From Arthrobacter sp. MYb23 (GTDB lineage: Bacteria; Actinomycetota; Actinomycetes; Actinomycetales; Micrococcaceae), in assembly GCF_002979775.1 (NCBI RefSeq), contig NZ_PCPR01000003.1, positions 248,001-312,000 of the forward strand: 64,000 bases of DNA. The letters run 5' to 3'. The position numbers and the translations under genes are program-made. Under the pieces are notes generated by a model. That model was not told the DNA's origin, searched no databases, and worked only from the letters and a program-made list of their open reading frames with translations. Numbering within the stretch: the stretch's first letter is position 1; every line of letters starts with the position of its first letter. Positions 29,594 through 49,150 of the stretch are shown here, in pieces.

Positions 29594-31665
29594 CAGTTGT
29601 CCTTGGGGGCGATGTAGAGGAATCCGGAGCCATCGATCCAGCAGGTCTGGTCGGGTGCGACCACAACGGTCGAGTCAAGCTGCTCCGCGACGAGGGGTCC
29701 GGGGATGCGCGGTCCGGCCGGGAGCGCTTCGCGAAGGTAGATCGGCGTATCATGCCAGGAACCCTCGAAATAGACTGGACGGGTGGATAGCGGCACGGGA
29801 AGCTCGTCGGGGCGATCCATTACCGCCTCGCTCGTGGCCGGGACCGGGATAGTGGCGACACAGCGGGCGGCGACGATTTCGAGCCGGGCATCGGGATCAT
29901 CGAAGCCGTAGCGTTCACGGTGCGCGAAGTCGAACGCCTCCCGAAGGAACGCCGGGTCTGAGTTCCATGGGACGGTGAGCTCATAGCTTTGGCCCAGATA
30001 CCGCAGGTCAACCAGACGCTCGATCTGAGTGTCCGTTCCCGATTCACTGCTCTCCACGGCGATGAATTTCTCGGCACGTTCGGTGAGTTCATCCAAGGCG
30101 GTTTGGATTTGCTCGGTATCCGTTGCGTCCGTGGTGGCCACCGATGCGACGAAGTCGCTGCGGATCGGTGCGTCCAGCATGCCGATGGCAGAGGCAACGC
30201 CAGGATGAGGCGGGATCACTGCCGATCGAAGACCCAGTTCACGTACCAAGTCAGATGCGTGAAGAGGTCCGGCACCGCCAAATGCCATCAGCGTGCAATC
30301 GCGAATGTCGATGCCGCGTTCGACGCTGACTTTGCGGACGCCGCGGGCCATGGTCGCCGTGATCACGCGCAGTACCCCTTCAGCTGTCTTCTCTTCGTCC
30401 ATGCCCAGCTCTGCAGAGAATTCCTGCAGCCGGGTACGGGCAGACGGGGCGTCAAGGGTCAGCCGACCGCCGAGCAGTGACTCGCCGAGGCGACCAAGGA
30501 GCAAGTGCGCATCGGTAACCGTGATGTCCTGACCGCCACGGCCGTAGCAGATGGGGCCGGGCGTAGCGCCGGCGCTCTGCGGTCCCACGCGAAGGCCGCC
30601 GCCGCTGTCTTGCCAGGCAATGGATCCGCCGCCTGCACCGATGGTGTGCACGTCAACGGTGGGCATCCGCAGCGGGTATCCTTCGATCTCGCTGGCGGTC
30701 ATTTCGTCTGGCTGGCCTGCGCGGATCAGGGCGATGTCGGTGCTGGTGCCGCCAATATCAAAGCTGACAACCTTGTCCAGACCAAGCTGCCCTGCCCAGC
30801 GCGCCGCTCCGATGACACCGCCGGCAAGGCCCGACAGCAGAGTGCGGACGCTTTGCTCGCGTGCGGTTTTACCGCTGATCAGTCCACCATTGGACTGCAT
30901 CACCCACAGTTTCGCGGGGACGGCGAGTTCAGCCAGACGATCCTCGAGCCGCTGCAGGTAGGAGGCGACTTTCGGCTGAACGTACCCGTTCAGGACGGCA
31001 GTGCTCGTCCTTTCGAACTCACGCATTTCAGCAGAGACCTCGGTGGCGGAGACGATGGCGGGCGCTGCTCCGGCTTCAAGGAGCAATTCAACCACCCGGC
31101 GTTCGTGCTTGGGGTTGATGTAGGCATTGAGGAAAGAGACGACAACAACGTCGACTGACTGGGCCGCGACTTGGGCACCGAGGGCGCGGACCGCGTCCTC
31201 GTCGAGTTCGCGCACCTCGCTGCCGTCCGCTGCGGTCCGCTCGGTGACCTCCCACGTGAGTTCAGCCGGGGCGAGAGGCTCCGGTCGGCGTGAGTCGGCC
31301 GAGTACAGGTGGGGTCGTGACTGGTATCCGATAGCGAGGAGGTCCCTGAAGCCTTTTGTGGTAACCAGACCCACTCTTCCGCCGGTCCGGGTGATAAGCG
31401 CGTTGGTGGCCACGGTCGTGCCATGAACGAACCGCTCCACGGAAGCCGGATTCTCAGACAGCTCCTGCAGCGCCCCGACGACACCTTCGATGACTGCCTC
31501 ATCCGGTGAGCTGGGCGAAGAGGAAACCTTCCAGATGAAAAGAGACCCATCGGGCTTGGCCACAGCAATGTCTGTGAATGTCCCCCCGGTGTCAACTGCT
31601 ATCCGGAGACCACTCGTTCCGGGTGTCGAGCCGCTAACCGGGCCCGATTCTGGCTGCATGTCCAT
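29593..31665 (-). CDS. hyuA: Hydantoinase/oxoprolinase family subunit A (ATP-dependent)
   Basis: 690 residues from the ATG at 31665, with GGAG upstream; a longer frame runs back through the promoter and operator and is rejected. The N-terminal Hydant_A_N nucleotide-binding block LRIAVDTGGTFTDIAV is followed by FVHGTTVATNALITRTGGRV, FDIGGTSTDIALI (phosphate-binding) and MAFGGAGPLHASDLV. This is the ATP-using subunit of N-methylhydantoinase, 5-oxoprolinase, caprolactamase and acetophenone-carboxylase type enzymes. It is first in the leftward operon, under the GntR-site-bearing promoter at 31.7 kb. The downstream sarcosine-oxidase-like gene makes an N-methylated or secondary amine product plausible. 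Confidence 0.93.
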   Translation of the reverse strand: MDMQPESGPVSGSTPGTSGLRIAVDTGGTFTDIAVAKPDGSLFIWKVSSSPSSPDEAVIEGVVGALQELSENPASVERFVHGTTVATNALITRTGGRVGLVTTKGFRDLLAIGYQSRPHLYSADSRRPEPLAPAELTWEVTERTAADGSEVRELDEDAVRALGAQVAAQSVDVVVVSFLNAYINPKHERRVVELLLEAGAAPAIVSATEVSAEMREFERTSTAVLNGYVQPKVASYLQRLEDRLAELAVPAKLWVMQSNGGLISGKTAREQSVRTLLSGLAGGVIGAARWAGQLGLDKVVSFDIGGTSTDIALIRAGQPDEMTASEIEGYPLRMPTVDVHTIGAGGGSIAWQDSGGGLRVGPQSAGATPGPICYGRGGQDITVTDAHLLLGRLGESLLGGRLTLDAPSARTRLQEFSAELGMDEEKTAEGVLRVITATMARGVRKVSVERGIDIRDCTLMAFGGAGPLHASDLVRELGLRSAVIPPHPGVASAIGMLDAPIRSDFVASVATTDATDTEQIQTALDELTERAEKFIAVESSESGTDTQIERLVDLRYLGQSYELTVPWNSDPAFLREAFDFAHRERYGFDDPDARLEIVAARCVATIPVPATSEAVMDRPDELPVPLSTRPVYFEGSWHDTPIYLREALPAGPRIPGPLVAEQLDSTVVVAPDQTCWIDGSGFLYIAPKDN

Positions 31666-31702
31666 GTGTTTTCTCCGTGGCGTTGTGATGCGTGACACGT
31701 CA

Positions 31703-31738
31703 ATACTCGCCCGCAGCACTAAAAGTGTCAACACTTTT
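31703..31738 (-). promoter_or_regulatory. hyuA promoter with overlapping operator
   Basis: Leftward promoter: -35 TTGACA at 31731-31726 (perfect consensus), 17-bp spacer, -10 GAGTAT at 31708-31703. The dyad AAAAGTGT-CA-ACACTTTT at 31721-31738 covers the -35 box, so a bound protein would block RNA polymerase. Its core AAGTGTCAACACTT recurs at 31785. Confidence 0.75.
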
Positions 31739-31769
31739 TTTATATCTGCTAACAATTTTTCCGTTTTGA

Positions 31770-34933: not shown

Positions 34934-35368
34934 CAGAACTCGTGGAGAAAGCGCGTAGTCAGCCACGTCCTTAATTGGGTCCGTCTGAGCTTATGGAGCC
35001 CGCTTCGTCCATCGGGTCCGCAGCCCAGTCGGCACCCGCGGGTGACGTTCCAGCTCGGTCCTGGAGGCCTGCCTTCAACTTCCTTGGCCTCAAAGTGGCT
35101 CAGGAAGGTCGCTCGGCGCTTTGGACATTACTTATCTGACACACACGGACGTGATCCCACTCTGCCCACAAAACCGTCAATGCGCAGGCCGCTGGTGATG
35201 CTTTAGGTTCTCGGTACCCACTGCCGTGATTCACTCCATCCCGGGGACGTCCACTCCTTGAACGACCGCGTCAGTTATCAGTGTCCGCGGTCTGCCGCGG
35301 CTATCCCGAGTGGTCTCCTATACGGCTGCGATCCCAAGATTGAGTGGGCTCAAATTAGGTTGACATTC
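34934..35368. other. No recognisable gene
   Basis: Only short frames, with no protein-like sequence that I recognise. The region leads into the decayed Abi_2 gene and looks like degenerate DNA. Confidence 0.5.
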
Positions 35369-35790
35369 TCAAACAGGGAGCGTTCCGGCATGCTTTGCTG
35401 AAGTCTTCCTTCGAATCAGCGAGGCGCCCTGAGCCGCTCGTGGTCCCAGAAGCGCTGGCTTTAGGTGCGCGCATTCATCGATCATTCCGAAGGCATGCCC
35501 GAGAAGAGCTCGCAAAGCCAGCTCTATCGGAGTGAGAGCGGCGACGGTTCCTGTTCGTAGGTTCGCATCGAAGCTGTAAAGACGGACGATATCGGCGAAT
35601 TAAGTTCCGGCTGAAAAGGCATCCTCACGGTCCGAGGTTCCCGGGCGTCTGAATGAATACCAGTACCCGCTCAGGCGGTAGTAGTTGATGTGCTGCAGCT
35701 GCCTAATAGCAGCTTTACGGACGCGGGCAACTGACCTCCGCTTAGAGAAAGTGAAGACCGGCCCTGGACCTACCGAAGTAGGCGGAACCG
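35369..35790 (-). pseudogene. Abi_2-family (AbiD/AbiF-like) abortive infection protein, inactivated
   Basis: The leftward frame contains the family hallmark LQHINYYRLSGYWYSFRRPG near 35660-35720, then FSAGT followed by an in-frame TAA at about 35602. It continues in the same frame with FADIVRLYSFDANLR, then VAALTPIELALRALLGHAFG and ECAHLKPALLGP before a TGA at 35369. This matches the second block of Abi_2 proteins, so one nonsense codon splits a related stretch. The N-terminus is not convincing and the C-terminal half is missing. Abi_2 proteins stop phage spread by killing or arresting infected cells. Confidence 0.75.
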
Positions 35791-36269
35791 GTCTTAGTGC
35801 TTCGACTGTATCCGATTTTAGTATGCAGCTCCAGCCGACCGGCAGCCCTGGGCCATCTCGATAGCCAACACGGCAATAACCCATTCCCTTGAAAAGGAGT
35901 CGGACGCCGCTGGGCCCTAATCACTCAGAGCTTGCCTGACCATCCCTGCAGTCCCTACTACGCTCGCTGAGTCAACGCCGATAAGAGCCCACACGTCGCC
36001 CAGTGAAACCAGCGCTACGGCCACCTTAAAGATGCTATTGAAGGCGTCCTAAAGGGCTGAGCGACATCTATTCCGACGGCGGGTCCAAAAGTCATCTCGG
36101 GGGTGTTGCGGAATCGGCGATCAAAATCTGTCCGCCGTCCGGCCTGAATCGGCATGTCTGAGCCTTCGATAAGAAACTCTGTTCCAGTGGCCTCCCGAGG
36201 GGCGGCCGACATCCGGTGATTGACTTTTGCCCGGCGCAGGCCGATTAAGTCTTTTCATGATGTATCACC
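35791..36269. other. No recognisable gene
   Basis: Frames are short and broken on both strands; nothing is identified. The stretch between the Abi_2 remnant and the HAD-like gene is probably decayed. Confidence 0.5.
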
Positions 36270-36779
36270 TTAACGGAGATCGGTGTCGGGATTATTGTCT
36301 GTCAACTTCCAAAAGACTGCCTTACCCAAACCGACCAGTCCGCGCGCTGGATCCACACGTAAGACGAGGCCCTGCGGGTCTGCCGGTAGGGGGTCCAGAT
36401 CTACCAAGGGGTCGTCGATCCAAATCCACGGTCTCGATCCGGCGAAGCGCTGAATTCTACTGAGTTTGTTGAACTGCGCCGGTAAATAGGGCCACGGTTT
36501 TGGAGGAAGGCCAAGCACACCGGCGAAGGCAACGTGGGCATTTGCGCCCCATTCCGAGACCCAAACAATGTCATAGCTTTCGGTAAGCTCTGCGATCAAT
36601 TCTTTGGTGCCCACGGGCACTAGGACCTCCCTTGACCATTTTCCGGACGCGGTGACATGCTCGCTCACCGTGGGAAGAGTAGCCGCCTGCTCCAGAGCTA
36701 TGACGCCGTCTACGCCCAGCATCAGCAGAGGGCGTGTATTGCCGCTTTTGCGGTTGATCAGGCTTGTGTTTTCTGTCAT
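36270..36779 (-). CDS. HAD-like protein (HAD_SAK_2-type) lacking the nucleophile
   Basis: 169 residues. Blocks match small actinobacterial HAD-domain proteins: PLLMLGVDGVIAL (18-30), IVWVSEWGANAHVAFAGVLG and PWIWIDDPLVDLDPL, then VLRVDPARGLVGL. Motif I should read DxDG; here it is GVDG, so the nucleophilic first aspartate is glycine (position 22) while the second is kept. The acidic IDD motif is intact. A normal phosphatase mechanism is therefore unlikely; it may be a binding protein or an early pseudogene with an open frame. It ends the leftward group after the Rieske oxygenase, 10 bp from that gene's stop. Confidence 0.7.
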   Translation of the reverse strand: MTENTSLINRKSGNTRPLLMLGVDGVIALEQAATLPTVSEHVTASGKWSREVLVPVGTKELIAELTESYDIVWVSEWGANAHVAFAGVLGLPPKPWPYLPAQFNKLSRIQRFAGSRPWIWIDDPLVDLDPLPADPQGLVLRVDPARGLVGLGKAVFWKLTDNNPDTDLR

Positions 36780-36789: not shown

Positions 36790-37998
36790 CTAGGTACCTG
36801 AAGAAGTTGTCGGTACCAAGAAGTTGCCGCCGGTGATGGAAACAGTTTCCGATTCAGCGTCCCTAATAATTCCTGCGGGATCGGAACCGGCTTCGACGGC
36901 GCGGATCTGTTTGGCCATCATTCGACGGATCATCGCGACGCCTTGATCGGTCGTAGAGAGGTGGTCGTCGGCGTGGAATGAGACATTACCTTGGCTCTTT
37001 TGCGCCTCGTAATCACCGGGCATTCTCTGGTGTTCGTCCTCGGAGAGTGTGGCCCACGGTTTTCCACCGTGCGTCGACCGCAGTTTCGACAGGAATTCAG
37101 GGTCTTCACTGACAGCCACCGTAAAGATTCGGAAGTTCGTGTCATCACCTGGCACAACCCAGCCGATCATGTTCGTCGTGCCTTCGGACAGTTTCGGGCT
37201 GGGGACGACTCGAATGTTAGGGAACATGACTTCTGTGACACGACGGAGAACACGCGATTCATCCAGGACTCGCAGTTGGGTCGACCGCACGCCGTTGGAG
37301 GTGTACTCGTAGGCAACTTCGGGCATGAGCGCCATTTCGGCCGTGAACTGTTCTCCGCTGAATCGTGCATGCAGGATCGGTACGTGGAAAGGGTCCATTA
37401 CGTTTTCCCAGTGCTGAAGCCAATTGAAGTCCAGATCCGCGGGTCCACCGCCGCCGACGCCTGCGTCGTTGACCATTAAGTGGTGTCCGTCTGGAATGTT
37501 CTCAAAAGGGTCGTAGCGAGGAAGAAGGGGCTTCAATTCTGGGGGGCCCATGTATGCCCAGATGAGCCCGTATCGTTCCTGCAAGGGGTACCAAGGTTGA
37601 CGGACCTTCTCACGGTGGAGTCCGAGTCCTGGCTCACAGGGTTGTTCGAGGCATTGCCCCTCAGGGGAAAAGACCCATCCGTGATAGCAGCAGCGGATGC
37701 CGTCGTCTTCAACCGCACCGTAGAATAGGGACGCACCACGGTGGACGCATCGGGGGTGTAGAAGAGCAGCCGTTCCGTCCTTTCGAGTGCGGAAAAGAAT
37801 TAACTCTTCCCCGAGCAGTTTGATCTTGCGGGGCCTTGACGTCGCATCGCTTGAACGGCCGACAGGATGCCAGTAGCGTCGCAGGACCTCACCGTATGGT
37901 GTTCCTGGCCCAACTTCGGCCAAATGACGCAACGGACCGTTGGGCTTCAGCCCATAGCCGGTGCCAGTGTCGATTTTCTCCTCAAGTGCTTCAGACAT
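36790..37998 (-). CDS. Rieske non-haem iron oxygenase, phthalate-dioxygenase-like alpha subunit
   Basis: 402 residues. Rieske [2Fe-2S] ligands: C84/H86 in RCVHRGASLFYG and C103/H106 in IRCCYHGW. The mononuclear iron site NVMDPFHVPILHARF supplies the bridging aspartate and the two histidines. This is the one-subunit-type oxygenase of the phthalate 4,5-dioxygenase/vanillate demethylase group, which hydroxylates or demethylates aromatic acids with electrons from a separate reductase. That reductase is encoded just upstream, with an 8-bp overlap. The substrate is presumably an aromatic compound linked to the peptide cassette that follows. Confidence 0.9.
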   Translation of the reverse strand: MSEALEEKIDTGTGYGLKPNGPLRHLAEVGPGTPYGEVLRRYWHPVGRSSDATSRPRKIKLLGEELILFRTRKDGTAALLHPRCVHRGASLFYGAVEDDGIRCCYHGWVFSPEGQCLEQPCEPGLGLHREKVRQPWYPLQERYGLIWAYMGPPELKPLLPRYDPFENIPDGHHLMVNDAGVGGGGPADLDFNWLQHWENVMDPFHVPILHARFSGEQFTAEMALMPEVAYEYTSNGVRSTQLRVLDESRVLRRVTEVMFPNIRVVPSPKLSEGTTNMIGWVVPGDDTNFRIFTVAVSEDPEFLSKLRSTHGGKPWATLSEDEHQRMPGDYEAQKSQGNVSFHADDHLSTTDQGVAMIRRMMAKQIRAVEAGSDPAGIIRDAESETVSITGGNFLVPTTSSGT

Positions 37999-38986
37999 CG
38001 AGTTCCAACTCCTCAGACACGGCCCGCGAGACGCAGACCATCATGGTTTCGTTTGCTTGCTTTTCCTCAGGCGAAAGGATGGAGTCACGGTGGTCGACTT
38101 CGCCGTGAAGCACTGTCAGTTCGCAAGTGCCGCAGGCGCCTTCCCGACACGAGGAAACTACGGGGATCCCGTTTGCTTCCAATGCATCCAGCACGCTGTC
38201 ATCCGGATTGACGGTGACGGTTTTGGCCGAGCGTGCGCACCTCACCTCGAAGGCACCTTCGCGACGGGCCGGGGCCAGTTTTGCCCCCCTGAACCGCTCC
38301 GTTCGAACACGCTGACCGACCGCTGATGCGATCTGTTCGGCCTCGTCGATCATGCGTTCCGGTCCGCAACAGTAAATTGCGGTCGAAGTGTCGGTGTTGC
38401 GGATGTGATCGAAGAGACTCAGCCGGCTTCCTTCGTCGGAAGCGTAGACACCCACAGTGCTGCCGTACAGGCCCAGTTCGTGGCTGAAAGGCATAACATC
38501 TCGTGAGGGAACAGCGTACGACAATCGCCATGGTCGTCCACGGGCCTCAGCCAAGGTGATCATGGGCAGTAGAGGTGTGATCCCGATGCCGCCGGCGAGA
38601 AACAGATAGGCCTCTGCATCCACGAACTCAAAATTCGATTTGGGACAGCTGATGGTGAGGACATCACCTGCGTGGACGGACTGGTGAACGAAGGCTGATC
38701 CTCCCCGCCCAGCGTCTTCGAGGCCCACACTGATCCGGTAAGACAGTCGGTTGCGCGGGTCTCCGCTCAAGGAATAGGAGCGGGATAGGTCGGTTGAAAG
38801 CTGCACGTCCACGTGCGCACCTGGCTGCCATTCCGGCAGGGTACCGCCGTGCAGGGAAATCAGCACCAGACTGACGACTGAATCGGCTTCCCACTGGATG
38901 GCCCGAACGCGCACGTCGAGCTGCTCGGATGCTTGGCCTGATTTCACTTCGTTGTTCCTCAGCAAAGTTGTGGTGGGTGTTCTCAT
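37991..38986 (-). CDS. Phthalate dioxygenase reductase-like flavin/[2Fe-2S] oxidoreductase
   Basis: 331 residues. Domain order matches phthalate dioxygenase reductase: flavin-binding barrel (SRSYSLSGDPRNRLSYRISV), NAD-binding domain (LFLAGGIGITPLLPMI, YCCGPERMID) and a C-terminal plant-type ferredoxin with CREGACGTC plus the distant fourth cysteine in MMVCVSRA. It passes electrons from NADH to the Rieske oxygenase downstream. Being first in this two-gene leftward unit, it is the gene behind the promoter region shared with the Pat-like aminotransferase. Confidence 0.92.
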   Translation of the reverse strand: MRTPTTTLLRNNEVKSGQASEQLDVRVRAIQWEADSVVSLVLISLHGGTLPEWQPGAHVDVQLSTDLSRSYSLSGDPRNRLSYRISVGLEDAGRGGSAFVHQSVHAGDVLTISCPKSNFEFVDAEAYLFLAGGIGITPLLPMITLAEARGRPWRLSYAVPSRDVMPFSHELGLYGSTVGVYASDEGSRLSLFDHIRNTDTSTAIYCCGPERMIDEAEQIASAVGQRVRTERFRGAKLAPARREGAFEVRCARSAKTVTVNPDDSVLDALEANGIPVVSSCREGACGTCELTVLHGEVDHRDSILSPEEKQANETMMVCVSRAVSEELELDV

Positions 38987-39060
38987 TCGAGCCTCCTCGC
39001 CTCGTGCCGCCCCGGAAACTGTTGTGCTACGTCGTTCATGGGAGGTTCACCTTGGCGTGT

Positions 39061-39090
39061 TGAGCAATAAGTACAAATGGTTATAATCAA
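39061..39090 (+). promoter_or_regulatory. Promoter of the Pat-like gene with GntR-type operator
   Basis: TTGAGC at 39061-39066, 16-bp spacer and a perfect TATAAT at 39083-39088. The near-palindrome TGGTTATAATCA at 39079-39090 contains the -10 box. Its exact reverse complement lies in the promoter of the ThDP operon at 41260-41271. Both are probably bound by the GntR protein encoded at 40.4-41.1 kb; this site also sits upstream of the divergent oxygenase genes. Confidence 0.7.
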
Positions 39091-39141
39091 TATGTCACTA
39101 TAGATTTATCGTCGTGTCAACCGATGCGGCGAGAACCACAA

Positions 39142-40284
39142 ATGAAGGGTCATGACGTGGGTGAACTGCGGGTACGGAAAGAACTGAGTGCGATTCCCGA
39201 CTACAAGGCAGGAAAGACGGCACCGTCAGCTATAGGCGTCAAGGACATGTTTAAACTGTCCTCCAACGAGAATCCGTTCGGGCCGCTGCCGTCTGTGGTG
39301 GATGCCATAGCGGGGCATCTGGGCTCAATCAACCGGTATCCCGAGATGGCTGCCTCAGCTCTCACTGCTGCTGTGGCCGAGCGCTATGAGGTCGACCCGG
39401 CAGCCGTGGTATTCGGAAGTGGCTCTGTTGAAGTGGTATCGCAGCTGATCCGCGCGACGGCTGGCAGCGGTGACGAAGTGCTCTTCGCCTGGCGCTCGTT
39501 TGAAGCCTATCCACTACTGGTACTGGCAGCTGGTGCAACTCCTGTCCGCGTTCCCTTGAACGACGACTTCGGACATGACCTGGAAGGTTTTCTAGAGCGG
39601 ATCACCGACCGCACGAGACTGATCCTCCTGTGCAATCCCAACAACCCTACGGGGACGACCCTGGGACACGAAGAGGTAGAACGTTTCCTCGACCGCGTCC
39701 CCAGCGATATCGCGGTGGTCATTGATGAAGCTTACGTGCAATTTAACCGTCGTCCAGACACTGCCGATGGGATCCGCCTCTATCGGAAGTTCCCAAACGT
39801 AGCCGTGGCGCACACCTTCTCCAAAGCCTACGGTTTGGCCGGGCTTCGGGTTGGATATGCTATCGCGCCCGTGGGGCTGGCAAGCGCCTTGCGTAAAGTT
39901 GCCCTTCCCTTTGGCGTGACACAACTTGCCCAGATTGCAGCCCTTGCATCCTTGAAGGCTGAGTCCGAACTGGGGGAGCGGGTCGATTGGCTGGTGGGCG
40001 AAAGGATTGCCGTTGTCGATGCCCTGAGGAGGAAGGGATGGAGGGTGCCTGAGACGGAGGGAAACTTCCTCTGGCTTCCTTTGGGTGCGGCCACGTCCGA
40101 AGCGGCGCAGATTCTCGAAGAACAGGGAATCCTCATTCGGCCATTCCCCGGGGAGGGTTTGCGGATCTCCATTGGAGGACCAGGCGCTGCAGAGCTGATA
40201 GTCGATGCAGTTGAGGTTCTAGTCGAGAAAGGACACACGGGGGGAGCCTTCGAGCATGCCGCGAAAGAAGGCTTACAGCGCTGA
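39142..40284 (+). CDS. PLP-dependent aromatic (Pat/HisC2-like) aminotransferase, cassette B
   Basis: 380 residues from the ATG at 39142 (MKGHDVG; another ATG at 39124 lacks a better ribosome site). Motifs: LSSNENPFGPLPS, FAWRSFEAYPLL, NPNNPTGTT, VIDEAYVQF, and the PLP lysine in HTFSKAYGLAGLRVGY (K228). It is a clear paralogue of the 4.35-5.46 kb gene. The predicted role is conversion of an aromatic amino acid to the aryl 2-oxo acid, which the ThDP enzyme and aldehyde dehydrogenase of the next operon could process. No other histidine-pathway gene is near. Confidence 0.88.
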   Translation: MKGHDVGELRVRKELSAIPDYKAGKTAPSAIGVKDMFKLSSNENPFGPLPSVVDAIAGHLGSINRYPEMAASALTAAVAERYEVDPAAVVFGSGSVEVVSQLIRATAGSGDEVLFAWRSFEAYPLLVLAAGATPVRVPLNDDFGHDLEGFLERITDRTRLILLCNPNNPTGTTLGHEEVERFLDRVPSDIAVVIDEAYVQFNRRPDTADGIRLYRKFPNVAVAHTFSKAYGLAGLRVGYAIAPVGLASALRKVALPFGVTQLAQIAALASLKAESELGERVDWLVGERIAVVDALRRKGWRVPETEGNFLWLPLGAATSEAAQILEEQGILIRPFPGEGLRISIGGPGAAELIVDAVEVLVEKGHTGGAFEHAAKEGLQR

Positions 40285-40354: not shown

Positions 40355-41101
40355 CTAGAAGCTAGGACTCCGGTGTGCGAGGACTGCTCGTCGGGCCTGC
40401 TCCTCATCCTGTGAACGGATGGCCGCCACCAAGTCGAAATGGATACGCAGACGGACGTCGGTGTCAGGTCTGAATCCAGGGACATCCAAGGATGCTGTTG
40501 GCATCTGGAGCTGGCTGCTTTCACCGTCAATGTAGTCGACAAGGTTCAAGTAAAAGGTCCTAAGGACCGCGTTCGGCGAGATTTTGGCGATACGGCGGTG
40601 CAAGGCCCAGTTGCAATGTAGCCCACGAACTGGATCGTGCCAAACAGAAGCAAGCTCACTCATGATGCGGTCGAGGTCCTCCACGTCAGCCGCGGTTCTG
40701 TGCTTGGTGGCATCGAACACTACTGCTTCGTCCAAGGCATCCAGCACTGCGACGACGTCGTTAACCGGCGCACCTTCCCTGCGAAGCTGCAGCACGCTGT
40801 GGGCCAGTCGGAGGAGAGGAGTCTGATTTGCTACGAACAGCCCACCGCCAGGGCCTGGGCGCGCCTCAATGATGCCCCGACCCCGCAGTACCCGCAGTGC
40901 TTCCGCGAGAGTGGCCGGCGCGACACCGAACTGCTCCGCCAAGCCTTGTTTGGTTCCAATTTTGTGGCCGGAAGGCAGGTCATCCCGCGCGATGATCGCC
41001 TCGATCTCCTCTATAACGGCATCTGCGACGGACGGGGCAGTTCGAAGCCGGGCAAGGGGGGTCATCGCAGCTCGGCCTTGGGCTCCAGGGTGGGCGGTCA
41101 T
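40355..41101 (-). CDS. GntR-family regulator, FCD type, cassette B
   Basis: 248 residues from the ATG at 41101 (AGGAC upstream; an ATG at 41155 is possible). The winged helix (VADAVIEEIEAIIARDDLPS, LAEQFGVAPATLAEALRVLR, RGIIEARPGPGGGLFV) precedes a helical FCD-type domain with LHCNWALHRRIAKIS and RIHFDLVAAIRSQDEEQARR. It lies between the Pat-like gene and the divergent ThDP operon, and TGRTTATAAYCA occurs at both flanking promoters. It is the best candidate for the regulator of all cassette B, including the oxygenase. Confidence 0.88.
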   Translation of the reverse strand: MTAHPGAQGRAAMTPLARLRTAPSVADAVIEEIEAIIARDDLPSGHKIGTKQGLAEQFGVAPATLAEALRVLRGRGIIEARPGPGGGLFVANQTPLLRLAHSVLQLRREGAPVNDVVAVLDALDEAVVFDATKHRTAADVEDLDRIMSELASVWHDPVRGLHCNWALHRRIAKISPNAVLRTFYLNLVDYIDGESSQLQMPTASLDVPGFRPDTDVRLRIHFDLVAAIRSQDEEQARRAVLAHRSPSF

Positions 41102-41249
41102 CTTTTGTTGTCCTGACTCTGCGGGGGCCGTAAGCGATTGCCCTAATGGCCTCATCTTATCGGCGAGCTAACCGGAACCGTAATGGAGCTCGCCTGGAGC
41201 CCCTCTCCGGGGCGCGAGATATCGGGCTTGTAAAAGATCCCGAAACCTC

Positions 41250-41278
41250 TTGCCTGAAATGATTATAACCAATATATT
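41250..41278 (+). promoter_or_regulatory. Promoter of the ThDP-transport-peptidase operon with GntR operator
   Basis: TTGCCT at 41250-41255, 17-bp spacer and TATATT at 41273-41278. TGATTATAACCA at 41260-41271 fills the spacer and is the exact reverse complement of the 39079 site, so a bound repressor would occlude the promoter. Confidence 0.68.
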
Positions 41279-41313: not shown

Positions 41314-42984
41314 ATGACACAATTGACCGGAGGCGAGCTTCTGGCCGAATCTTTGGCAGCCCAAGGGGTTGACCAGATTTTTGGCATCCCGGGGGTTCAG
41401 CTAGACGCGGCGGCAGATGCACTACAGTCGCGAAAAGAGAAGATCAGCTTTACTTGTGCACGAAACGAGCAAGCGACCACCTACATGGCCGATGGGTACG
41501 CGCGCAGCACCGACAAAGAGGGCGTTGCCATGGTCGTGCCAGGACCCGGCGTCCTCAATGCACTCTCAGGCCTCGCGACCGCGTACTCGGCCAATTCACC
41601 GGTCCTGCTTCTGGCGGGACAGATCGATTCGAAGGCCATCGGACGGGGTCTGGGGGCTTTGCATGAAATCCCGGACCAGTCCGGACACTTGGCTCGGTTG
41701 ACTAAATGGTCGGCCATGGCTCGGTCGGCGGATGAGATCCCAGGACTCGTTCAGGAGGCATTCCACCAGCTTCGCAGTGGCCGGCCGCGTCCGGTGGCGC
41801 TTGAGCTGCCGCCGGATGTCCTCGCGTCCTTTGGATCGGCCCGGATCCCGAGCATGGTTCCCTTCGGACCGACCCAGCCGGAGCAGCGACTGATCGAGCA
41901 GGCAGCGGCGCTGTTGAAACAGGCCCGTCGGCCCATGATTTACGTTGGAGGCGGTGTCCTGGCATCCGGGGCATCAAGTGCGCTGCAGGCACTGGCCGAG
42001 AAACTCGAAGCGCCCGTGCTCATGAGTGAGAATGGCCGCGGCGCCTTGGATGCCCGCCACCGTCTTGCGTTCGATGCGCTTGCCCTGAGGGCCTTCCGCG
42101 AGGACGCTGATCTCGTCCTTGCGGTCGGAAGCCGGTTTGTATCGACGTTCGGGACCCCAGTTGGAACTGGCAGCGCAAGGGTTATCCTGCTGAACGCTGA
42201 CGAGGCGGATCTGACCGATCCGCGGCCAGCTGACCTTCGTATCCACAGTGACGCCGACACTGGCCTGCAGGCGCTCTCTTCGGCTTTGGGAAACCTGTCC
42301 GGCGAGTCCCGGGAGACCGAATTCGCATCGGTTCGCGAATGGCTGGACCTCCAGTTCCAGGACATCGCACCGCAGCGAGAGTACCTGTCAGCAATCAGGG
42401 CGGCACTGCCTGATGACGGTGTCTTCGTCAGTGAATTCACGCAGGTCGGGTACGCCGCCAGTGCCTGCTATCCCGCCTACACGCCCAGGACATACATCGG
42501 CCCCGGCTACCAAGGAACGCTCGGTTACGGCTTCGCTACGGCGTTGGGCGTCAAAGCCGCCGACCGGAACCGTGCTGTTGTTTCCGTCAACGGTGACGGC
42601 GGTTTCTCCTGGACCATGCAGGAACTGTCCACTGCAAAGAGGTACGGCCTCGGTCTGGTGACCATCGTGTTCAATGACGGTTTCTTTGGCAACGTCCGTA
42701 GGATTCAGAAGAACCGGTATGGGGCACGATACTTTGCCAGCGACCTGACGAACCCAGACTACGGGGAACTGGCTGGTGCGTTCGGAATCGAACGGGCGAG
42801 GGCAACCACGCCTGCTGAACTGCGCAGCGTCCTGTTAGAAGCGATCCCCGCCAACGAGCCTATTCTCGTCGAGGTACCGGTCGGAGAGTTCCCGTCTCCC
42901 TGGCACTTGATCCACGAAGGTATTCCCCGTCCCGCGCCACTGCAGGCCGACTCCCATTTGGTCACAGCGGGAGCCCTGAAATGA
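41314..42984 (+). CDS. ThDP-dependent decarboxylase/synthase (acetolactate synthase superfamily), cassette B
   Basis: 556 residues with AGGAG just upstream. FGIPGVQLDAAADALQ and ARNEQATTYMADGYARST with the activating glutamate (E52) mark the Pyr domain; NGDGGFSWTMQEL followed by VFNDGFFGN gives the diphosphate motif and its asparagine. It is the counterpart of the 2.6-4.3 kb gene but not closely similar to it. It is the first gene of the long rightward operon and overlaps the aldehyde dehydrogenase start. That order suggests decarboxylation of an aryl 2-oxo acid to an aldehyde, but acetolactate-like carboligation is not excluded. Confidence 0.88.
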   Translation: MTQLTGGELLAESLAAQGVDQIFGIPGVQLDAAADALQSRKEKISFTCARNEQATTYMADGYARSTDKEGVAMVVPGPGVLNALSGLATAYSANSPVLLLAGQIDSKAIGRGLGALHEIPDQSGHLARLTKWSAMARSADEIPGLVQEAFHQLRSGRPRPVALELPPDVLASFGSARIPSMVPFGPTQPEQRLIEQAAALLKQARRPMIYVGGGVLASGASSALQALAEKLEAPVLMSENGRGALDARHRLAFDALALRAFREDADLVLAVGSRFVSTFGTPVGTGSARVILLNADEADLTDPRPADLRIHSDADTGLQALSSALGNLSGESRETEFASVREWLDLQFQDIAPQREYLSAIRAALPDDGVFVSEFTQVGYAASACYPAYTPRTYIGPGYQGTLGYGFATALGVKAADRNRAVVSVNGDGGFSWTMQELSTAKRYGLGLVTIVFNDGFFGNVRRIQKNRYGARYFASDLTNPDYGELAGAFGIERARATTPAELRSVLLEAIPANEPILVEVPVGEFPSPWHLIHEGIPRPAPLQADSHLVTAGALK

Positions 42985-44426
42985 TGCGCAGCTTTGCAGG
43001 AACCGTTGTCGGACATTACATCAACGGACAGTGGGGATCGGGCCAGGGACGCGAAGTCATTGAAGTGCACAGCCCCAGCGACGGGCGCGCAGTCGGCGCG
43101 GTCGTAGCGGGAACGGCTGAGGACGTCAACAAAGCCGTCGACGCCGCGTCCTCAGCGTTTCCTGCCTGGGCTCAAACTTCACCGGCGGAACGCATCCGCC
43201 TGGTCGAGCGGCTGATCATCGAGATCGAGCGAGGCCGAGAGGCGCTCGCTTCGGTTCTCACAGACGAAATGGGTTCGCCGCTGGCGTTCGCACGTGCGGC
43301 CCAGGTGGGAGTCGCAGTTGCGGACCTCCGTGAGCTGGTGGCTGCCGCCCGGGCCCACGATTCCGAATGGGAAGTGTCCAACTCCTTGGTGATTTCAGAA
43401 CCGGTCGGAGTTGTTGCTGCGATTACACCTTGGAATTTTCCACTTCATCAGATCAGCTTGAAAGTCGGAGCCGCTCTGCTGGCAGGCTGCACGGTTGTTC
43501 TGAAACCCAGCGAGATCGCCCCACTGAATGCCGCGATGCTCGCCGGGATGTTCGAAGCGGCGGGCTTCCCGCCAGGCGTGTTCAACGTCGTCTTCGGAAA
43601 CGGCGAAAGCGTTGGCGACCCGCTGGTAACCCATCCGAAGGTAGACATGGTTACCTTTACTGGCTCGCGCAACGTTGGGGAACGGATCTCCATACGCGCC
43701 TCAGCGTCGATAAAACGTGTCACTCTCGAACTCGGCGGTAAATCAGCAGCCGTGATCCTGGATGATGCTCACGTCGGGGATTCCGTTTCTGCAGTCCTCC
43801 GGTCGGCCTTTGCAAATACGGGGCAGACGTGTGCAGCGCTGACCCGTGTTTTGGTGCCATCTTCGCTGCGCGATGTCTGGATCAAGCAAGCACTGGACGA
43901 GAGCCGCAAGTGGACCCCCGGACGACCGGAGGAAGAATCGACGATTCTTGGCCCGCTGGCGTCCGCACAGCAGCTCGAACGAGTACGCCAGCACATCAGG
44001 CGAGCCATCCAAGACGGAGCGGAAGTCGTGACCGGGGGAGCCGGAATGGTCACTGGGTTGGAAGATGGCGCGTTCGTTTACCCCACAATCTTCAATAATG
44101 TCACCCCGCAGATGCAGCTCTTTCATGAGGAAGTGTTCGGTCCGGTTCTCGCCATCACGTCCTACGAGACCATCGAGGAAGCCGTTGCTCTTGCCAATGA
44201 TTCAATCTACGGGCTCTCCGGTGGGGTCTTCTCCGCTGATGACGCCCGCGCCATCGACGTCGCCAGGCAGATGAGGACGGGAACTGTGGGCATTAACGGG
44301 GCCGGTCTGGACGTCGGTGCCCCCTTCGGCGGGTACAAGCAGTCTGGTAACGGCCGTGAATGCGGAACCCTCGGTTTCGAGGAATTCCTCGAAACCAAAT
44401 CAGTGATGGGGGCACGGAAGCCCTGA
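42981..44426 (+). CDS. NAD(P)-dependent aldehyde dehydrogenase
   Basis: 481 residues of the ALDH superfamily. ITPWNFPLHQISLKVGAALL, KPSEIAPLNA, FTGSRNVGERIS, general-base glutamate in LELGGKSAA, nucleophilic cysteine in FANTGQTCAA and EEVFGPVLAI are all intact. It oxidises an aldehyde to the acid. Its ATG overlaps the stop of the ThDP enzyme by 4 bp, which ties it to that enzyme's product, for example an arylacetaldehyde to an arylacetate. The substrate identity is inferred. Confidence 0.92.
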   Translation: MMRSFAGTVVGHYINGQWGSGQGREVIEVHSPSDGRAVGAVVAGTAEDVNKAVDAASSAFPAWAQTSPAERIRLVERLIIEIERGREALASVLTDEMGSPLAFARAAQVGVAVADLRELVAAARAHDSEWEVSNSLVISEPVGVVAAITPWNFPLHQISLKVGAALLAGCTVVLKPSEIAPLNAAMLAGMFEAAGFPPGVFNVVFGNGESVGDPLVTHPKVDMVTFTGSRNVGERISIRASASIKRVTLELGGKSAAVILDDAHVGDSVSAVLRSAFANTGQTCAALTRVLVPSSLRDVWIKQALDESRKWTPGRPEEESTILGPLASAQQLERVRQHIRRAIQDGAEVVTGGAGMVTGLEDGAFVYPTIFNNVTPQMQLFHEEVFGPVLAITSYETIEEAVALANDSIYGLSGGVFSADDARAIDVARQMRTGTVGINGAGLDVGAPFGGYKQSGNGRECGTLGFEEFLETKSVMGARKP

Positions 44427-44508: not shown

Positions 44509-46104
44509 ATGAACGCACGACCAGCATTTGCTGTGGCGGCAGCAGCCGCCGTAGCTTTGTTTGCAGTCTCCGGATGTGCCCCGGGCGGTTCAAACAGCAC
44601 TTCCGCGCAGGAGGCTGTTACCGGAGGCCAGGCCACCATCGCCATTGCGGCGGATCCTGGCACCCTGAATCCCTTGGCTGGGAATCCGTCTCCGTCCTCA
44701 TACCAGTTGATGGCCATAGCCTACGACCATCTGGTCGCTAGAACTGCCGACGGGAAATTTCAGGCGAATCTGGCGAGTTCCTGGGAGTCCACTCCCACGA
44801 GCGCTAAATTTGTCCTGCGTGATGACGTCAAGTGCTCCGACGGTTCGGCCTTGACCCCTTCTGTAGTGGCCAAGACCTTCGCTTGGGTGTTGGACAAGAA
44901 GAACAGCTCGCCGTGGCTGGGTGCGTTCATTCCCGTTGACGCCAAGGTCACCCCTGATGATGCCAACAAAACGCTGGAAGTCACTTCGGCAACTCCGTCG
45001 AGCTTCCTGCTCAACTCGCTCAGCTATATGCCAATTCTGTGTGGCAGTGGTGCTGACAACCCCGCCGGACTGGCCACCACAACGTCGGGCACCGGCATGT
45101 TCAAACTGACCGGGGAAACCCCCGGCCAGAGCTTCACATTCAGTGTCCGACCTGAGTATGTGTGGGGTCCGGCAGGCGCTAAGGCCAGCGACGCGGGAGT
45201 TCCGGCCACCGTCACAGTCAAGATTGTGGCCAATGAAGCAACGCGGGCTAACCTGCTGATCAGTGGCGATGTGAACGTCACCGCACTCACCGGCGCGGAC
45301 AGAGATCGTCTCAAAAACCAGAACCTGTCGAAGATCGATATCCCCGCCAACCCGGGGCTCATATTCTTCAACCAGGCCGCTGGCCGCGTAGGCGCGGACA
45401 AATCAATCCGCAGCACCCTTAGCCAAGCCTTGGACCTGAAGTCCATCGCTTCTGTGGCTTCGGGAGGCCGCGGACAGGACTTAAAGTCCATCGTCACTGG
45501 AACGCCTTCGGTGTGCAGCGTCGACACCATTTCTGGCAACGTTCCGTCCTTCGACGCCGAGTCGGCAAAGAAGGCACTGGACGCAGCCGGGTGGAAGGCA
45601 GGATCCGACGGCCTCCGCAGCAAGGATGGCAAAGCACTTCAACTGAAGTTCCTCTACCCGAGCAACCGAGGCACTGAGCTGGTCGCCGCAGCCGAACTTA
45701 TCCAGAAAGAACTGCGGGCCATCGGTGCGGACCTTACTCTCGTCGGGTCGGATAACTACGCCAGCGTCCTGTTCAGCGGCGGCGATTGGGACATAGTCTG
45801 GGGCCCGTTCAGCACCGAAGACCCCAGTGTTTGGACAATCCTGGTCAACGGCGCCGCCCCACCCAACGGGCGCAACTTCGCCTCCATCCAGAACGCAACC
45901 TACCAAGCCAAAACGAACGAAGCTGTCACCAATGCAGGAGAGGAATCCTGCCCCCTCTGGGGCGAAGCCGAAGCGGCGCTGATCAAGGACAACGACATCC
46001 TGCCCGTAGTAGCAAACACTCAGACAATCTACGGCAACAAAGCCAAATTCAACCTTGGCATCCTGGGCAGTGTCGACGCAACGTCGATCCGCATGTCTAA
46101 ATAA
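44509..46104 (+). CDS. ABC transporter substrate-binding lipoprotein, peptide/nickel family, cassette B
   Basis: 531 residues. A lipoprotein signal (hydrophobic AVAAAAAVALFAV, then SGCAPGG) places the lipidated cysteine near residue 23. The mature region is family-5: ADPGTLNPLAGNPSPSSYQL, YDHLVARTADGKFQANLASS, DVKCSDGSALTPSVV and PSNRGTELVAAAELIQKELR. It is related to the cassette A protein and should bind oligopeptides or similar molecules. It lies 82 bp after the aldehyde dehydrogenase gene and 47 bp before the first permease gene. Confidence 0.92.
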   Translation: MNARPAFAVAAAAAVALFAVSGCAPGGSNSTSAQEAVTGGQATIAIAADPGTLNPLAGNPSPSSYQLMAIAYDHLVARTADGKFQANLASSWESTPTSAKFVLRDDVKCSDGSALTPSVVAKTFAWVLDKKNSSPWLGAFIPVDAKVTPDDANKTLEVTSATPSSFLLNSLSYMPILCGSGADNPAGLATTTSGTGMFKLTGETPGQSFTFSVRPEYVWGPAGAKASDAGVPATVTVKIVANEATRANLLISGDVNVTALTGADRDRLKNQNLSKIDIPANPGLIFFNQAAGRVGADKSIRSTLSQALDLKSIASVASGGRGQDLKSIVTGTPSVCSVDTISGNVPSFDAESAKKALDAAGWKAGSDGLRSKDGKALQLKFLYPSNRGTELVAAAELIQKELRAIGADLTLVGSDNYASVLFSGGDWDIVWGPFSTEDPSVWTILVNGAAPPNGRNFASIQNATYQAKTNEAVTNAGEESCPLWGEAEAALIKDNDILPVVANTQTIYGNKAKFNLGILGSVDATSIRMSK

Positions 46105-46151
46105 CACCAGGTCACCACCAGTAACAGACTCCCAACGAAAGTGAGCATCTT

Positions 46152-47183
46152 GTGAGTCACGAGCTCGGCATAGACCCACCGGTCGCCGCCGCCACAGAGC
46201 CCGCCCGTCAACGGCAACAGGCCGAAACAACGCGCACGCACGTGTGGATCCGTTTCCTGCTACGCAGAACGACCCGGATGATCATTTCAATGTTCATCAT
46301 TGTGACTGTTGCCTTCTTCGTCGTCCGCATGTCCGGCGGCGATCCTGTCAGGGATGCCTTGGGACCTACAGCGCCCATGGCCCTCGTTGAGCAGCGGCGC
46401 GCCGAACTCGGACTGGACGCACCGCTTCTGAACCAGTATCTTCACTATCTCTTTGGCCTGCTCCAAGGAGATCTGGGATCCTCGTTCATAACCGGGCAGT
46501 CTGTCAGCAGCGTTGTTGCCGAGCGTCTGCCCAAGACGCTGGCGCTCGGCTTCATCGCTGTAGTTGTTGTACTTATCGTTGCCATCCCACTGGGCCTTAT
46601 CATTGCCGTCCTCACCCAGAACGGACGACGACGACTAACAGAGTTCAGTTTCAGTGGCCTCACCGGGTTATTCCTGTCGATCCCCGAATACCTGCTGGCA
46701 GTGGGCCTCGTGGTGCTATTCGGGATCATGTGGCCGGTGCTTCCTATTGCCGGGTCGGATTCTGCGGCTGCCTACGTCCTGCCGGTCATCGCTCTGGGCG
46801 CCGCGTCATCGGCGCTAATCGCACGGATTGCTCGGGTCGAAGGATTGAAAGTACTCGGCCAGGACTATATGCGCACAGCACGGTCCAAACGGCTTCCGAA
46901 AACCACACTCTATTTCAAGCACGCCCTGCCAAACATGCTAACGGCGGTATTGACTCTGGGCGGCACAACGCTGGGCGGATTGGTTGCCGCAACCGCGCTG
47001 GTTGAGCAAGTATTCAACTGGCCCGGGCTGGGATACACCCTTATCCAATCCATTTCGGCCAGGGACTACAACGTCGTCGTCGGTGTCGCCGTCGTCTATG
47101 CCACCCTCATCATCGTAATCAACCTCATGGTTGACGTGCTCCTCGCAGCCCTTGACCGTCGAACAGCTCTACTGGAGATATAA
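46152..47183 (+). CDS. ABC transporter permease (DppB/OppB family), cassette B
   Basis: 343 residues from a GTG at 46152. Six membrane segments. MIISMFIIVTVAFFVVRMSG is the first helix, then QRRAELGLDAPLLNQYLHYL; the ATPase-contact loop is QDYMRTARSKRLPKTTLYFK, followed by HALPNML. It is the first half of the transport channel and lies 2 bp before the fused partner. Confidence 0.9.
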   Translation: MSHELGIDPPVAAATEPARQRQQAETTRTHVWIRFLLRRTTRMIISMFIIVTVAFFVVRMSGGDPVRDALGPTAPMALVEQRRAELGLDAPLLNQYLHYLFGLLQGDLGSSFITGQSVSSVVAERLPKTLALGFIAVVVVLIVAIPLGLIIAVLTQNGRRRLTEFSFSGLTGLFLSIPEYLLAVGLVVLFGIMWPVLPIAGSDSAAAYVLPVIALGAASSALIARIARVEGLKVLGQDYMRTARSKRLPKTTLYFKHALPNMLTAVLTLGGTTLGGLVAATALVEQVFNWPGLGYTLIQSISARDYNVVVGVAVVYATLIIVINLMVDVLLAALDRRTALLEI

Positions 47184-47185
47184 AC

Positions 47186-49150
47186 ATGCGCCCACGTTTT
47201 TTGAGGACCATCTTTTCCTCACCTCTGAGAGCGTTTGCGTCCCTCGCTCTCCTGGCCCTGATCGTGATCGCAGTAATCGGCCCGGCCATCTGGGGAGTCG
47301 AAGGCGACACGCCAAACCCCACGACGCTTAACGCCCCGCCAGGCGGTGACCACATCGCCGGGACGGACGCCCTAGGTCGTGACGTCCTTGCGCGGGTGTT
47401 GGCAGCTGGGCAGATCTCACTCCTTATGGCATTATCTGCTACCGCAATCGGGGTAGTGCTGGGTACCCTGCTCGGAGCCGTGCCGGTAGTTCTCGGACGC
47501 AGGTCCCAGCGAATTCTTGCCTCTGTCCTTTCAACCTGGATGGCATTTCCTGTCCTGCTGGTCGCCTTGTTCATCACCATCCTCCTAGGACCGGGCACCG
47601 TAACAGCCGTAATAGCCATGGGCCTGACCATGACCCCGTCCTTTGGCCGGTTCATGCAAACACTCGCCGCAGAGATCGAGTCCGCAGACTATGTCGTGGC
47701 CGGCCGTATGCTGGGAATCAGACGTGGACGGCTGTTCCGGCGGTATATCCTGCCCAACATCTCCGAACCCGTTTTGGTCTACGTGACGATCTCCATCGGC
47801 AACGCACTTCTGGCCATGTCAGCGCTCAGCTTTCTCGGACTCGGGGTACAGGCTCCGAACTACGACTGGGGCCGAATGCTTGGCGATGCCCTGCCCAACG
47901 TTTACACCAGCCCCTGGGCAGCCCTGATCCCCGGAATCGCTATAGTCTTCGCAGGCATCACCTTCGGACTGGCAGGAGAAGCTCTGGCCTCTCTCTCCCG
48001 CAACCGTGGAGGCGCCGCCCGCCCACCCCGAGGCGTCCCAACGCCGCAGAGCCCGTCAGCGATGGAAACCTCCGCTACCCGCCTGAATCAGGGCAACGAA
48101 TCGAACACCGAAGCACACCTAGTATCCGGTCGTTCCCTCGATGGCGAACCCCTCTTGAGCGTTCGCCATCTCAGCGTCCACTACCCGACCAGCGACGGAT
48201 GGGTGAGCCCTGTCCGTGACGTCAGCCTAACCATCAACCGAGGGGAAATCGTCGGTGTTGTCGGCGAATCAGGATCAGGAAAGTCCGTGACGTCCATGGC
48301 CATCAACCGCTTGATCACCAACCCCGGCCAAGTTCAGGCACGACAACTGAGCTTCGATGGCATCGACCTGTTGGGCATCAAGGAAAAGGATCTCCGCGCG
48401 AAGCTTGGCAGCCGAATCGCCACCATTTTCCAGGACCCGATGACTTACTTGAACCCGGCGCTGCGTATCGGCACTCAGCTGACCGAAGTGCTCGAAGGTC
48501 GCAGCACCCGCGCAGAAGCACGAGAACGGGCAATCGCCGGACTCAAAGAACTCCGTATGACCAAGCCGGCAGAACGTCTGAACCAATTCCCTGCCGAGCT
48601 GTCCGGCGGAATGCGCCAGAGGGTCCTAATCGCCATGGCGCAGATCGCAGACGCTGACCTGATCATCGCCGACGAACCAACAACGGCGCTGGACATGACG
48701 GTCCAGCACCACGTCTTGGCCGCATTACGCAAACGCTGCCGCGAAAATGGAAGCTCCGCACTGGTCGTCTCCCATGACATTGGCGTCCTCGTCGAGCTCT
48801 GCACCCGACTCGTAGTCATGTACGCGGGGAGGATCGTTGAGGAGATCTCGGTGGAACAGCTCCTTAGGCAAGGCCCGGCCCACCCGTACACCGAGGCGTT
48901 GTTGGCATCCTTGCCAACCCTGGAAACGCCTGTTGACAAGCCGCTGGTTACCCTCCCCGGTCAACCTCCCCACCCAGGCGAAACCTTCTCCGGCTGCGCC
49001 ATGGCACCTCGTTGTCCCTTCTCCACCGATGAATGCCGGACTGTTCTCCCGCAGCTCGAACTTGTCCGCCCGGCAACCAAAGCAGCCTGCTTACACCCTC
49101 GAAACCACGCGATCGCCTCGACCGAAAGGCAGAACCTTGACATCGCTTGA
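47186..49150 (+). CDS. Fused ABC permease-ATPase (DppC-DppD fusion), cassette B
   Basis: 654 residues. Residues about 1-275 are the DppC-like permease (HIAGTDALGRDVLARVL, contact loop VAGRMLGIRRGRLFRRYILP). A linker of roughly 50 residues follows. Residues about 325-600 are the ATPase: Walker A GESGSGKS, TIFQDPMTYLNPA, signature LSGGMRQRV, Walker B LIIADEPTTALD. The C-terminal oligopeptide-transport tail has the cysteines seen in full-length OppD (SGCAMAPRCPFSTDECR). The cassette A fusion lacks that tail. The next ATPase gene starts within its last 14 bp. Confidence 0.93.
   Translation: MRPRFLRTIFSSPLRAFASLALLALIVIAVIGPAIWGVEGDTPNPTTLNAPPGGDHIAGTDALGRDVLARVLAAGQISLLMALSATAIGVVLGTLLGAVPVVLGRRSQRILASVLSTWMAFPVLLVALFITILLGPGTVTAVIAMGLTMTPSFGRFMQTLAAEIESADYVVAGRMLGIRRGRLFRRYILPNISEPVLVYVTISIGNALLAMSALSFLGLGVQAPNYDWGRMLGDALPNVYTSPWAALIPGIAIVFAGITFGLAGEALASLSRNRGGAARPPRGVPTPQSPSAMETSATRLNQGNESNTEAHLVSGRSLDGEPLLSVRHLSVHYPTSDGWVSPVRDVSLTINRGEIVGVVGESGSGKSVTSMAINRLITNPGQVQARQLSFDGIDLLGIKEKDLRAKLGSRIATIFQDPMTYLNPALRIGTQLTEVLEGRSTRAEARERAIAGLKELRMTKPAERLNQFPAELSGGMRQRVLIAMAQIADADLIIADEPTTALDMTVQHHVLAALRKRCRENGSSALVVSHDIGVLVELCTRLVVMYAGRIVEEISVEQLLRQGPAHPYTEALLASLPTLETPVDKPLVTLPGQPPHPGETFSGCAMAPRCPFSTDECRTVLPQLELVRPATKAACLHPRNHAIASTERQNLDIA

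Follow-up and report, generated by a model that had tools for sequence, protein, structure and literature searches.

The DNA examined here, referred to as the window, is a 64,000-nucleotide stretch of Arthrobacter sp. MYb23 (contig NZ_PCPR01000003.1, positions 248,001 to 312,000 of the forward strand). It carries a gene cluster organised around a predicted Rieske non-heme iron oxygenase, hereafter named RO (36790-37998, minus strand). RO is preceded by a PDR/VanB-type reductase, named RED (37991-38986, minus strand), and followed by a small third gene (36270-36779, minus strand). A HisC/Pat-like class I aminotransferase, named AT (39124-40284, plus strand; PF00155, 8e-58; PRK03321 above cut-off), diverges from RED. 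Next to AT are found a GntR/FCD transcriptional regulator (40355-41155, minus strand; PF00392, PF07729), a thiamine pyrophosphate (TPP)-dependent enzyme proposed to act as an aryl-pyruvate decarboxylase (41314-42984, plus strand; PF02775, PF02776, PF00205) and an aldehyde dehydrogenase (ALDH), a candidate aryl-acetaldehyde dehydrogenase (42981-44426, plus strand; PF00171, 1.1e-154), in which the catalytic Cys and Glu motifs were found. An earlier note on this DNA had already recognised a two-component phthalate-type oxygenase diverging from an aminotransferase, with correct coordinates; the third small gene and a second operator copy before the TPP gene were missing from it.

The oxygenase, its partners and a shared palindrome

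RO matches PF00355 (1.2e-16, Pfam) and retains an intact Rieske ligand motif, CxH-x16-CxxH, starting at residue 84. The mononuclear iron motif NxxDxxHx4H is also intact (NVMDPFHVPILH, at 199), and N199, D202, H205 and H210 are invariant across 23 aligned sequences. The top fold matches of its predicted structure (pLDDT 87.6) are phthalate and isophthalate dioxygenases (TM around 0.75, 24-28% identity). These enzymes also come top in the sequence comparison, with O-demethylases further off (7qwt, 7.4e-19; DdmC, 5.6e-12). PF00355 was the only Pfam match, PF03241 being absent, and none of the HpaB models in NCBIfam matched. Judged by its sequence, RO is a Rieske non-heme iron oxygenase of the single-subunit phthalate-dioxygenase type. 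In RED, the [2Fe-2S] domain (Fer2) is located at the C-terminus, with a CREGACGTC...C motif intact from residue 280; it resembles phthalate dioxygenase reductase (2pia, 3.4e-42). The RED-RO operon contains no beta subunit gene, and its sole further gene is the one at 36270-36779.

This third gene encodes a protein of 169 residues that resembles haloacid dehalogenase (HAD) proteins, as suggested by weak PF18143 (HAD_SAK_2) matches and by its predicted structure. PF18143 was matched weakly in 11 of 14 members of the family (E up to 1, 6.1e-5 at best), the window protein scoring 17.8 against 27.5 bits. Its AF2 model has a pLDDT of 83.6, and the top Foldseek matches are HAD phosphatases, with an E value of 3.5e-3 at best and none at or below 0.001. 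The nucleophilic aspartate of motif I is replaced by Gly in 13/14 aligned members, window protein included, and phosphatase activity has likely been lost. A regulatory or assembly role for RO would be a guess.

The 137-bp gap between RED and AT contains a palindrome, TGGTTATAATCA (39078-39089), whose reverse-complement form, TGATTATAACCA, occurs in the gap between the GntR and TPP genes (41260-41271). Around the palindrome, the two gaps differ at 2 positions over 18 bases. The window holds two exact TGRTTATAAYCA matches, while shuffles give 0.14 even with one mismatch allowed, and these two are the only exact sites in the 5.19-Mb genome. The common operator claimed in the earlier note is therefore real as a sequence. 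When one mismatch is allowed, 10 genome sites are found versus 7 for a reversed control pattern, so that only exact sites are informative. Diverged versions of the palindrome occupy the same gaps in several relatives. Among 12 RED/AT gaps scored, 7 agree with it at no fewer than 10 of the 12 positions (equally good shuffles, 0-10/200); the other 5, all from Microbacterium, match at 9/12, a score equalled by 23-38/200 shuffles and thus not significant alone. In the GntR/TPP gap, 13 relatives score 8-10/12, and only L005, L010 and L011 (10/12) exceed shuffles (4-6/200). At copy 1, TATAAT is seen by eye 16 bases past TTGAGC, reading toward AT, and this placement within the copy would be in keeping with binding of a repressor. 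The probable repressor of both promoter regions is the GntR protein, which would act through this one palindrome.

Conservation of the cluster and adjacency to hpa genes

A scan of genome contigs yielded 58 RO loci; genes at high-GC loci were called with a codon-position score, and counts are based on homology matches. We focused on 16 close loci (L003-L016, L021 and L022), in which RO identity is at least 66%. All are actinobacterial and they represent eight genera plus one family-level bin. The RED, RO, HAD-like, GntR and TPP genes are kept together in 16/16 close loci, with the HAD-like homologue always following RO. ALDH is retained in 15 of them and AT in 14, and 13 have the genes for the binding protein and first permease of a peptide importer. 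L015 and L021, which are among the loci lacking some of these genes, end within the cluster, and in L003 AT is represented by a 43% homologue at another place in the locus. AT is directly divergent from RED in 12/16 close loci; in L011, one S10-like peptidase gene separates them. Several relatives have in addition an amidohydrolase and a CpsA-like carboxypeptidase. The earlier note had proposed looking for the pair in other genomes; RED and RO occur in 16/16 close loci and AT in 14/16. It had also tied the oxygenase to amino-acid catabolism and peptide uptake. Since oxygenase, transaminase and peptide import form one conserved, apparently co-regulated unit, this association holds, and a substrate derived from an aromatic amino acid is likely, its identity being deduced from context.

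A maximum-likelihood tree built from 68 RO sequences places the 16 close sequences and the window RO in one group (support 94/73; 100/100 including L017), the window RO having the Sphaerimonospora and Microtetraspora copies as its sister group (100/98). The unit is lost in remoter loci: L017 retains RED and the HAD-like gene, and L018 RED alone. On plasmids of Sphingobium baderi (L174) and Rhodococcus pyridinivorans (L175), 48% RO relatives and their reductases lie between insertion sequences, which indicates that this branch is mobile; the RO-RED pair is repeated on the R. pyridinivorans plasmid.

The genes for homoprotocatechuate degradation, hpaD, hpaE and hpaG, stand beside the RO cluster in five genera, three of which also have hpaH and hpaI there. 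The operon that RED-RO-HAD faces in Sphaerimonospora (L003) and Microtetraspora (L021) comprises hpaH, hpaI, hpaG, gntR, hpaE and hpaD; HpaD, HpaE and HpaH are above equivalog cut-offs in the former, and the hpaG- and hpaI-like proteins are under them in the latter. The trio hpaD-hpaE-hpaG adjoins AT in Actinophytocola (L012), is found close to the importer genes in Leifsonia (L119) and comes immediately after the second ATPase gene in Streptomyces fuscichromogenes (L120). In Streptomyces S3, hpaD-hpaE adjoin M1-M42-M20 peptidase genes on a contig different from that of RO. When RO and hpaD share a contig in Microbacterium, they are about 104 kb (G199), 101 kb (G203) or 1.3 Mb (G236) apart. 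In the window genome, the hpa locus encodes HpaD (445.8/321.4 bits), HpaE (668/638.35) and HpaH (373/351.5), all above cut-off. The HpaI relative (304/368.8) and the HpaG C-terminal part (139.8/276.4) are under equivalog cut-offs, the hpaG-like protein passing PRK12764.

Genome searches covered 18 genomes, leaving aside those of L015 (4.9-kb contig), L019 and L020 (short contigs). HpaD is above cut-off in 16/16 searched genomes with RO identity of at least 66%, and in 0/2 with RO at 61% and 56%. In Microbacterium, HpaD is found in 8/8 RO genomes versus 204/247 overall. In Streptomyces, HpaD is above cut-off in 6/11 genomes with any RO relative (E up to 1e-80) versus 18/315 (hypergeometric p 5.6e-6; 5/10 and p 5.4e-5 without the centre genome, kinship being ignored in both tests), and 10 of these 11 carry only a side-clade RO of 42-49% identity with other neighbours. 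Given the Microbacterium background and the side-clade Streptomyces, HpaD co-occurrence is weak as proof, and we rely on physical adjacency instead. Because hpaD, hpaE and hpaG adjoin the cluster in relatives, homoprotocatechuate is the probable product of RO. A homogentisate route was not favoured, HmgA being above cut-off in 3/18 genomes and without a match in the window genome. The TPP enzyme matches PRK08266 ('hypothetical protein', 677 versus a cut-off of 571 bits, NCBIfam) and, as its second match, 5-guanidino-2-oxopentanoate decarboxylase (350 versus 500 bits); the arginine-type pathway that this second match would imply was set aside in view of the hpa adjacency.

The hydroxylase found with hpa genes varies between genomes. 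In Streptomyces G709, hpaG-hpaE-hpaD are headed by a true hpaB (629 vs 480 bits) and a flavin-reductase-like gene. In S. fuscichromogenes, the same genes come after the RO cluster, and the genome search detected no protein of the HpaB family. The single HpaB-family protein of the window genome scores below the HpaB cut-off (350 vs 480 bits) and has neighbours that look unrelated (nitrilase-like and cupin-like genes, named by eye). Comparison of the three suggests that the hydroxylases were swapped. The HpaB family is absent from 10/16 close-RO genomes. Its absence was rejected as proof that RO is the hydroxylase, the family also being absent from 239/247 Microbacterium genomes, with HpaD above cut-off in 204/247.

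Proposed pathway and rival explanations

From the observed gene order, its conservation, the palindrome and the hpa adjacency in relatives, we infer the substrates, the reactions, the order of steps and the repressor of a module to which we give somewhat better than even chances: it would convert tyrosine from peptides into homoprotocatechuate, with RO in place of HpaBC. The ABC importer would take up peptides, and peptidases would free from them an aromatic amino acid, tyrosine being the likeliest. AT would convert this tyrosine into 4-hydroxyphenylpyruvate, the TPP enzyme would decarboxylate the latter to 4-hydroxyphenylacetaldehyde, and ALDH would oxidise the aldehyde to 4-hydroxyphenylacetate. 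Routes from an amino acid to an arylacetate usually run through a transaminase, then a TPP enzyme, then an aldehyde dehydrogenase. RED would then transfer electrons from NAD(P)H to RO, which would hydroxylate the ring next to the phenol and yield homoprotocatechuate (3,4-dihydroxyphenylacetate). The Hpa enzymes, encoded on another contig here and beside the cluster in some relatives, would open and degrade the ring, and the GntR protein would repress both promoter regions via the common palindrome. Tyrosine is favoured because 4-hydroxyphenylacetate needs one ring hydroxylation to reach homoprotocatechuate, phenylalanine needing a second oxidation. A broader proposal, that the Rieske enzyme replaced HpaBC in several actinobacterial families and works together with a dedicated HAD-fold partner that is catalytically dead and encoded by the very next gene, is a good deal more tentative, and we regard it as doubtful.

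Several observations weigh against this pathway. Close RO genes are rare, being found in 1/198 genomes of the window's genus, and the window genome's hpa operon (hpaG-gntR-E-D-H-I) lies on another contig and has no exact operator site; its inclusion in the same operator regulon was rejected, one-mismatch sites being near chance. Among 18 HpaD-positive Streptomyces, 12 carry HpaB (in 9 of these, no more than about 5 kb from hpaD), a close RO without HpaB occurs in one and 5 have neither. Ten of the 20 HpaD-negative Streptomyces searched alongside also carry HpaB, so that its presence alone says little. Some hpa operons have neither hydroxylase nearby, and of 247 Microbacterium genomes, 204 have HpaD above cut-off, 8 HpaB and 8 a close RO. 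Hydroxylases other than HpaB and RO must exist, RO being one upper module among several. In addition, related Rieske clades occur within other pathways. On an Aminobacter plasmid, a 54% RO relative with RED, a TPP enzyme and an aminotransferase adjoins 4-hydroxybenzoate 3-monooxygenase, so that the grouping of RO, TPP enzyme and transaminase extends beyond the homoprotocatechuate lower pathway. The 42-49% Streptomyces side clade is accompanied by RED and HpaE-like dehydrogenases, with a TPP enzyme in some loci, and no AT homologue was present in the eight stretches examined (one of them an hpa locus without RO). As a separate observation, two Streptomyces hpa loci (L165, L169) have a dihydrodipicolinate-synthase-like gene, named by eye, between hpaG and hpaE, which perhaps fills the role of the HpaI aldolase; neither stretch has an HpaB or RO homologue.

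The main rival, unlikely but with a better claim than the other alternatives, is that RO is an O-demethylase releasing homoprotocatechuate and formaldehyde from a methoxylated arylacetate or aryl amino acid derivative such as homovanillate. The solved relatives of RO include guaiacol O-demethylase (7qwt) and dicamba O-demethylase, and a 44% relative on plasmid pLRE138 of R. erythropolis R138 has purU, folP and an aminomethyltransferase gene around it, a hint of C1 handling. On the other hand, phthalate-type dioxygenases are nearer to RO than demethylases are, annotation from RO through to the M20 peptidase brought up no recognisable C1 or formaldehyde gene, and the importer and peptidases would suit tyrosine more than a methoxylated compound. 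The earlier note had envisaged hydroxylation or O-/N-demethylation; the first two are both possible, and no evidence was found for N-demethylation.

The identity of the amino acid depends in part on AT, which the earlier note had called aromatic. Its best solved relative is a 'putative phenylalanine aminotransferase' (4r2n, 5.9e-88). It also passes PRK03321 (469.7 vs 374 bits) and, barely, hisC TIGR01141 (277.0 vs 276.55), a further point against the tyrosine route, both NCBIfam models carrying the name histidinol-phosphate transaminase. The aromatic label thus follows from similarity. This subfamily name and the phenylalanine relative, together with the fact that the hpa operon here is not under the same operator, would fit a module for phenylalanine, tryptophan or histidine in which RO oxidises the corresponding arylacetate and the hpa adjacency reflects the grouping of aromatic catabolism genes. 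We consider this improbable: hpaD/E/G adjacency recurs in five genera, phenylacetate requires a second oxidation, and a diol dehydrogenase is absent from the conserved core. Less probable still is the same module with the same product in which RO acts earlier, on tyrosine or 4-hydroxyphenylpyruvate, the decarboxylase and dehydrogenase then using the catechol. The directly divergent arrangement of RED-RO and AT would agree with such an order, but in Sphaerimonospora and Microtetraspora, whose copies are the closest relatives, it is the hpa operon that RED-RO faces, suggesting a step just before HpaD. The earlier note had allowed modification before or after transamination; since the hpa adjacency points to homoprotocatechuate as product, RO most likely acts after transamination and also after decarboxylation.

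Surrounding genes and comparison with known systems

Beyond ALDH, the plus strand encodes an Opp/Dpp-type peptide importer (44509-49913; SBP_bac_5, BPD_transp_1, ABC_tran, oligo_HPY), made of a binding protein (44509-46104), a first permease (46152-47183), a fused permease-ATPase (47186-49150) and a second ATPase (within 48837-49913). Three peptidases identified with Pfam follow on the same strand (49910-54138): an M1/LTA4H-like peptidase (49910-51727), an M42 peptidase (51734-52765) and an M20 peptidase (52762-54138). L014 has this M1-M42-M20 trio near its RO cluster, and L124 has it beside hpaD-hpaE. The window contains another peptide module, paralogous to this one, at 2638-18947. It contains a TPP enzyme (29% identical to the one studied here), a PRK03321 aminotransferase (48% to AT), a class V aminotransferase, an amidohydrolase, a pair of S10-like peptidases and an Opp importer that shows the same fusion, permease and ATPase domains being joined in a single polypeptide in both modules (47186-49150 and 15113-16894). 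No Rieske gene is present among the ORFs annotated there. A further catabolic-looking run on the minus strand (21925-31755) includes hydantoinase/oxoprolinase A and B, an MFS transporter, an SDR, a GFO/IDH/MocA oxidoreductase, an aminotransferase and an FAD oxidase that comes close to the model for N-methyl-L-tryptophan oxidase (243.8 vs 257 bits). Next to the HAD-like gene, 1.3 kb (34934-36269) without any ORF of at least 100 residues enclose a weak Abi_2 fragment (35600-35884, minus strand; PF07751, 24.0 vs 25.6 bits, 30 residues), perhaps a decayed abortive-infection gene.

Full-text literature searches, judged by title and start of abstract and with subscription papers mostly outside, returned no Rieske 4-hydroxyphenylacetate hydroxylase. 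The cluster provides testable candidates in the genomes that carry it and is too rare for a general answer. If our proposal is true, Rieske phenol ortho-hydroxylation in amino-acid catabolism would broaden what the phthalate-dioxygenase group is known to do, and an accessory in the form of a conserved dead HAD partner would come as a surprise.

The route itself is most likely a known one, and what would be new is its Rieske hydroxylase variant, supported by genomic context. Excerpts of PMC3534580 and PMC2991359 cite Blakley 1977 for a route from tyrosine via 4-hydroxyphenylacetate and homoprotocatechuate to meta cleavage. The same route is proposed here, with the order hpaG-gntR-E-D-H-I; the differences are a Rieske enzyme as the proposed hydroxylase, a TPP enzyme and ALDH for the aryl-pyruvate step, and a tie to peptide import. 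Arthrobacter Rue61a grows on tyrosine, 4-hydroxyphenylacetate and homoprotocatechuate, as the excerpt of PMC3534580 reports. In PMC9867520, a vanillate demethylase from Rhodococcus is reported to leave homovanillate undegraded.

The best structural matches of RO, the phthalate and isophthalate dioxygenases of Comamonas testosteroni KF1 (7fjl/7v25, 9ina), act on phthalates, whereas the context of RO points to an amino-acid-derived substrate. Rieske O-demethylases (7qwt, DdmC, VanAB) likewise consist of an oxygenase and a separate reductase, presumably of the VanB type, and are more distant from RO in sequence. HpaBC, the flavin-dependent two-component 4-hydroxyphenylacetate 3-hydroxylase, catalyses the reaction proposed for RO and holds the same place relative to hpaG-E-D in Streptomyces. 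However, the two belong to unrelated protein families, RO being a non-heme iron enzyme with PF00355 and without PF03241.

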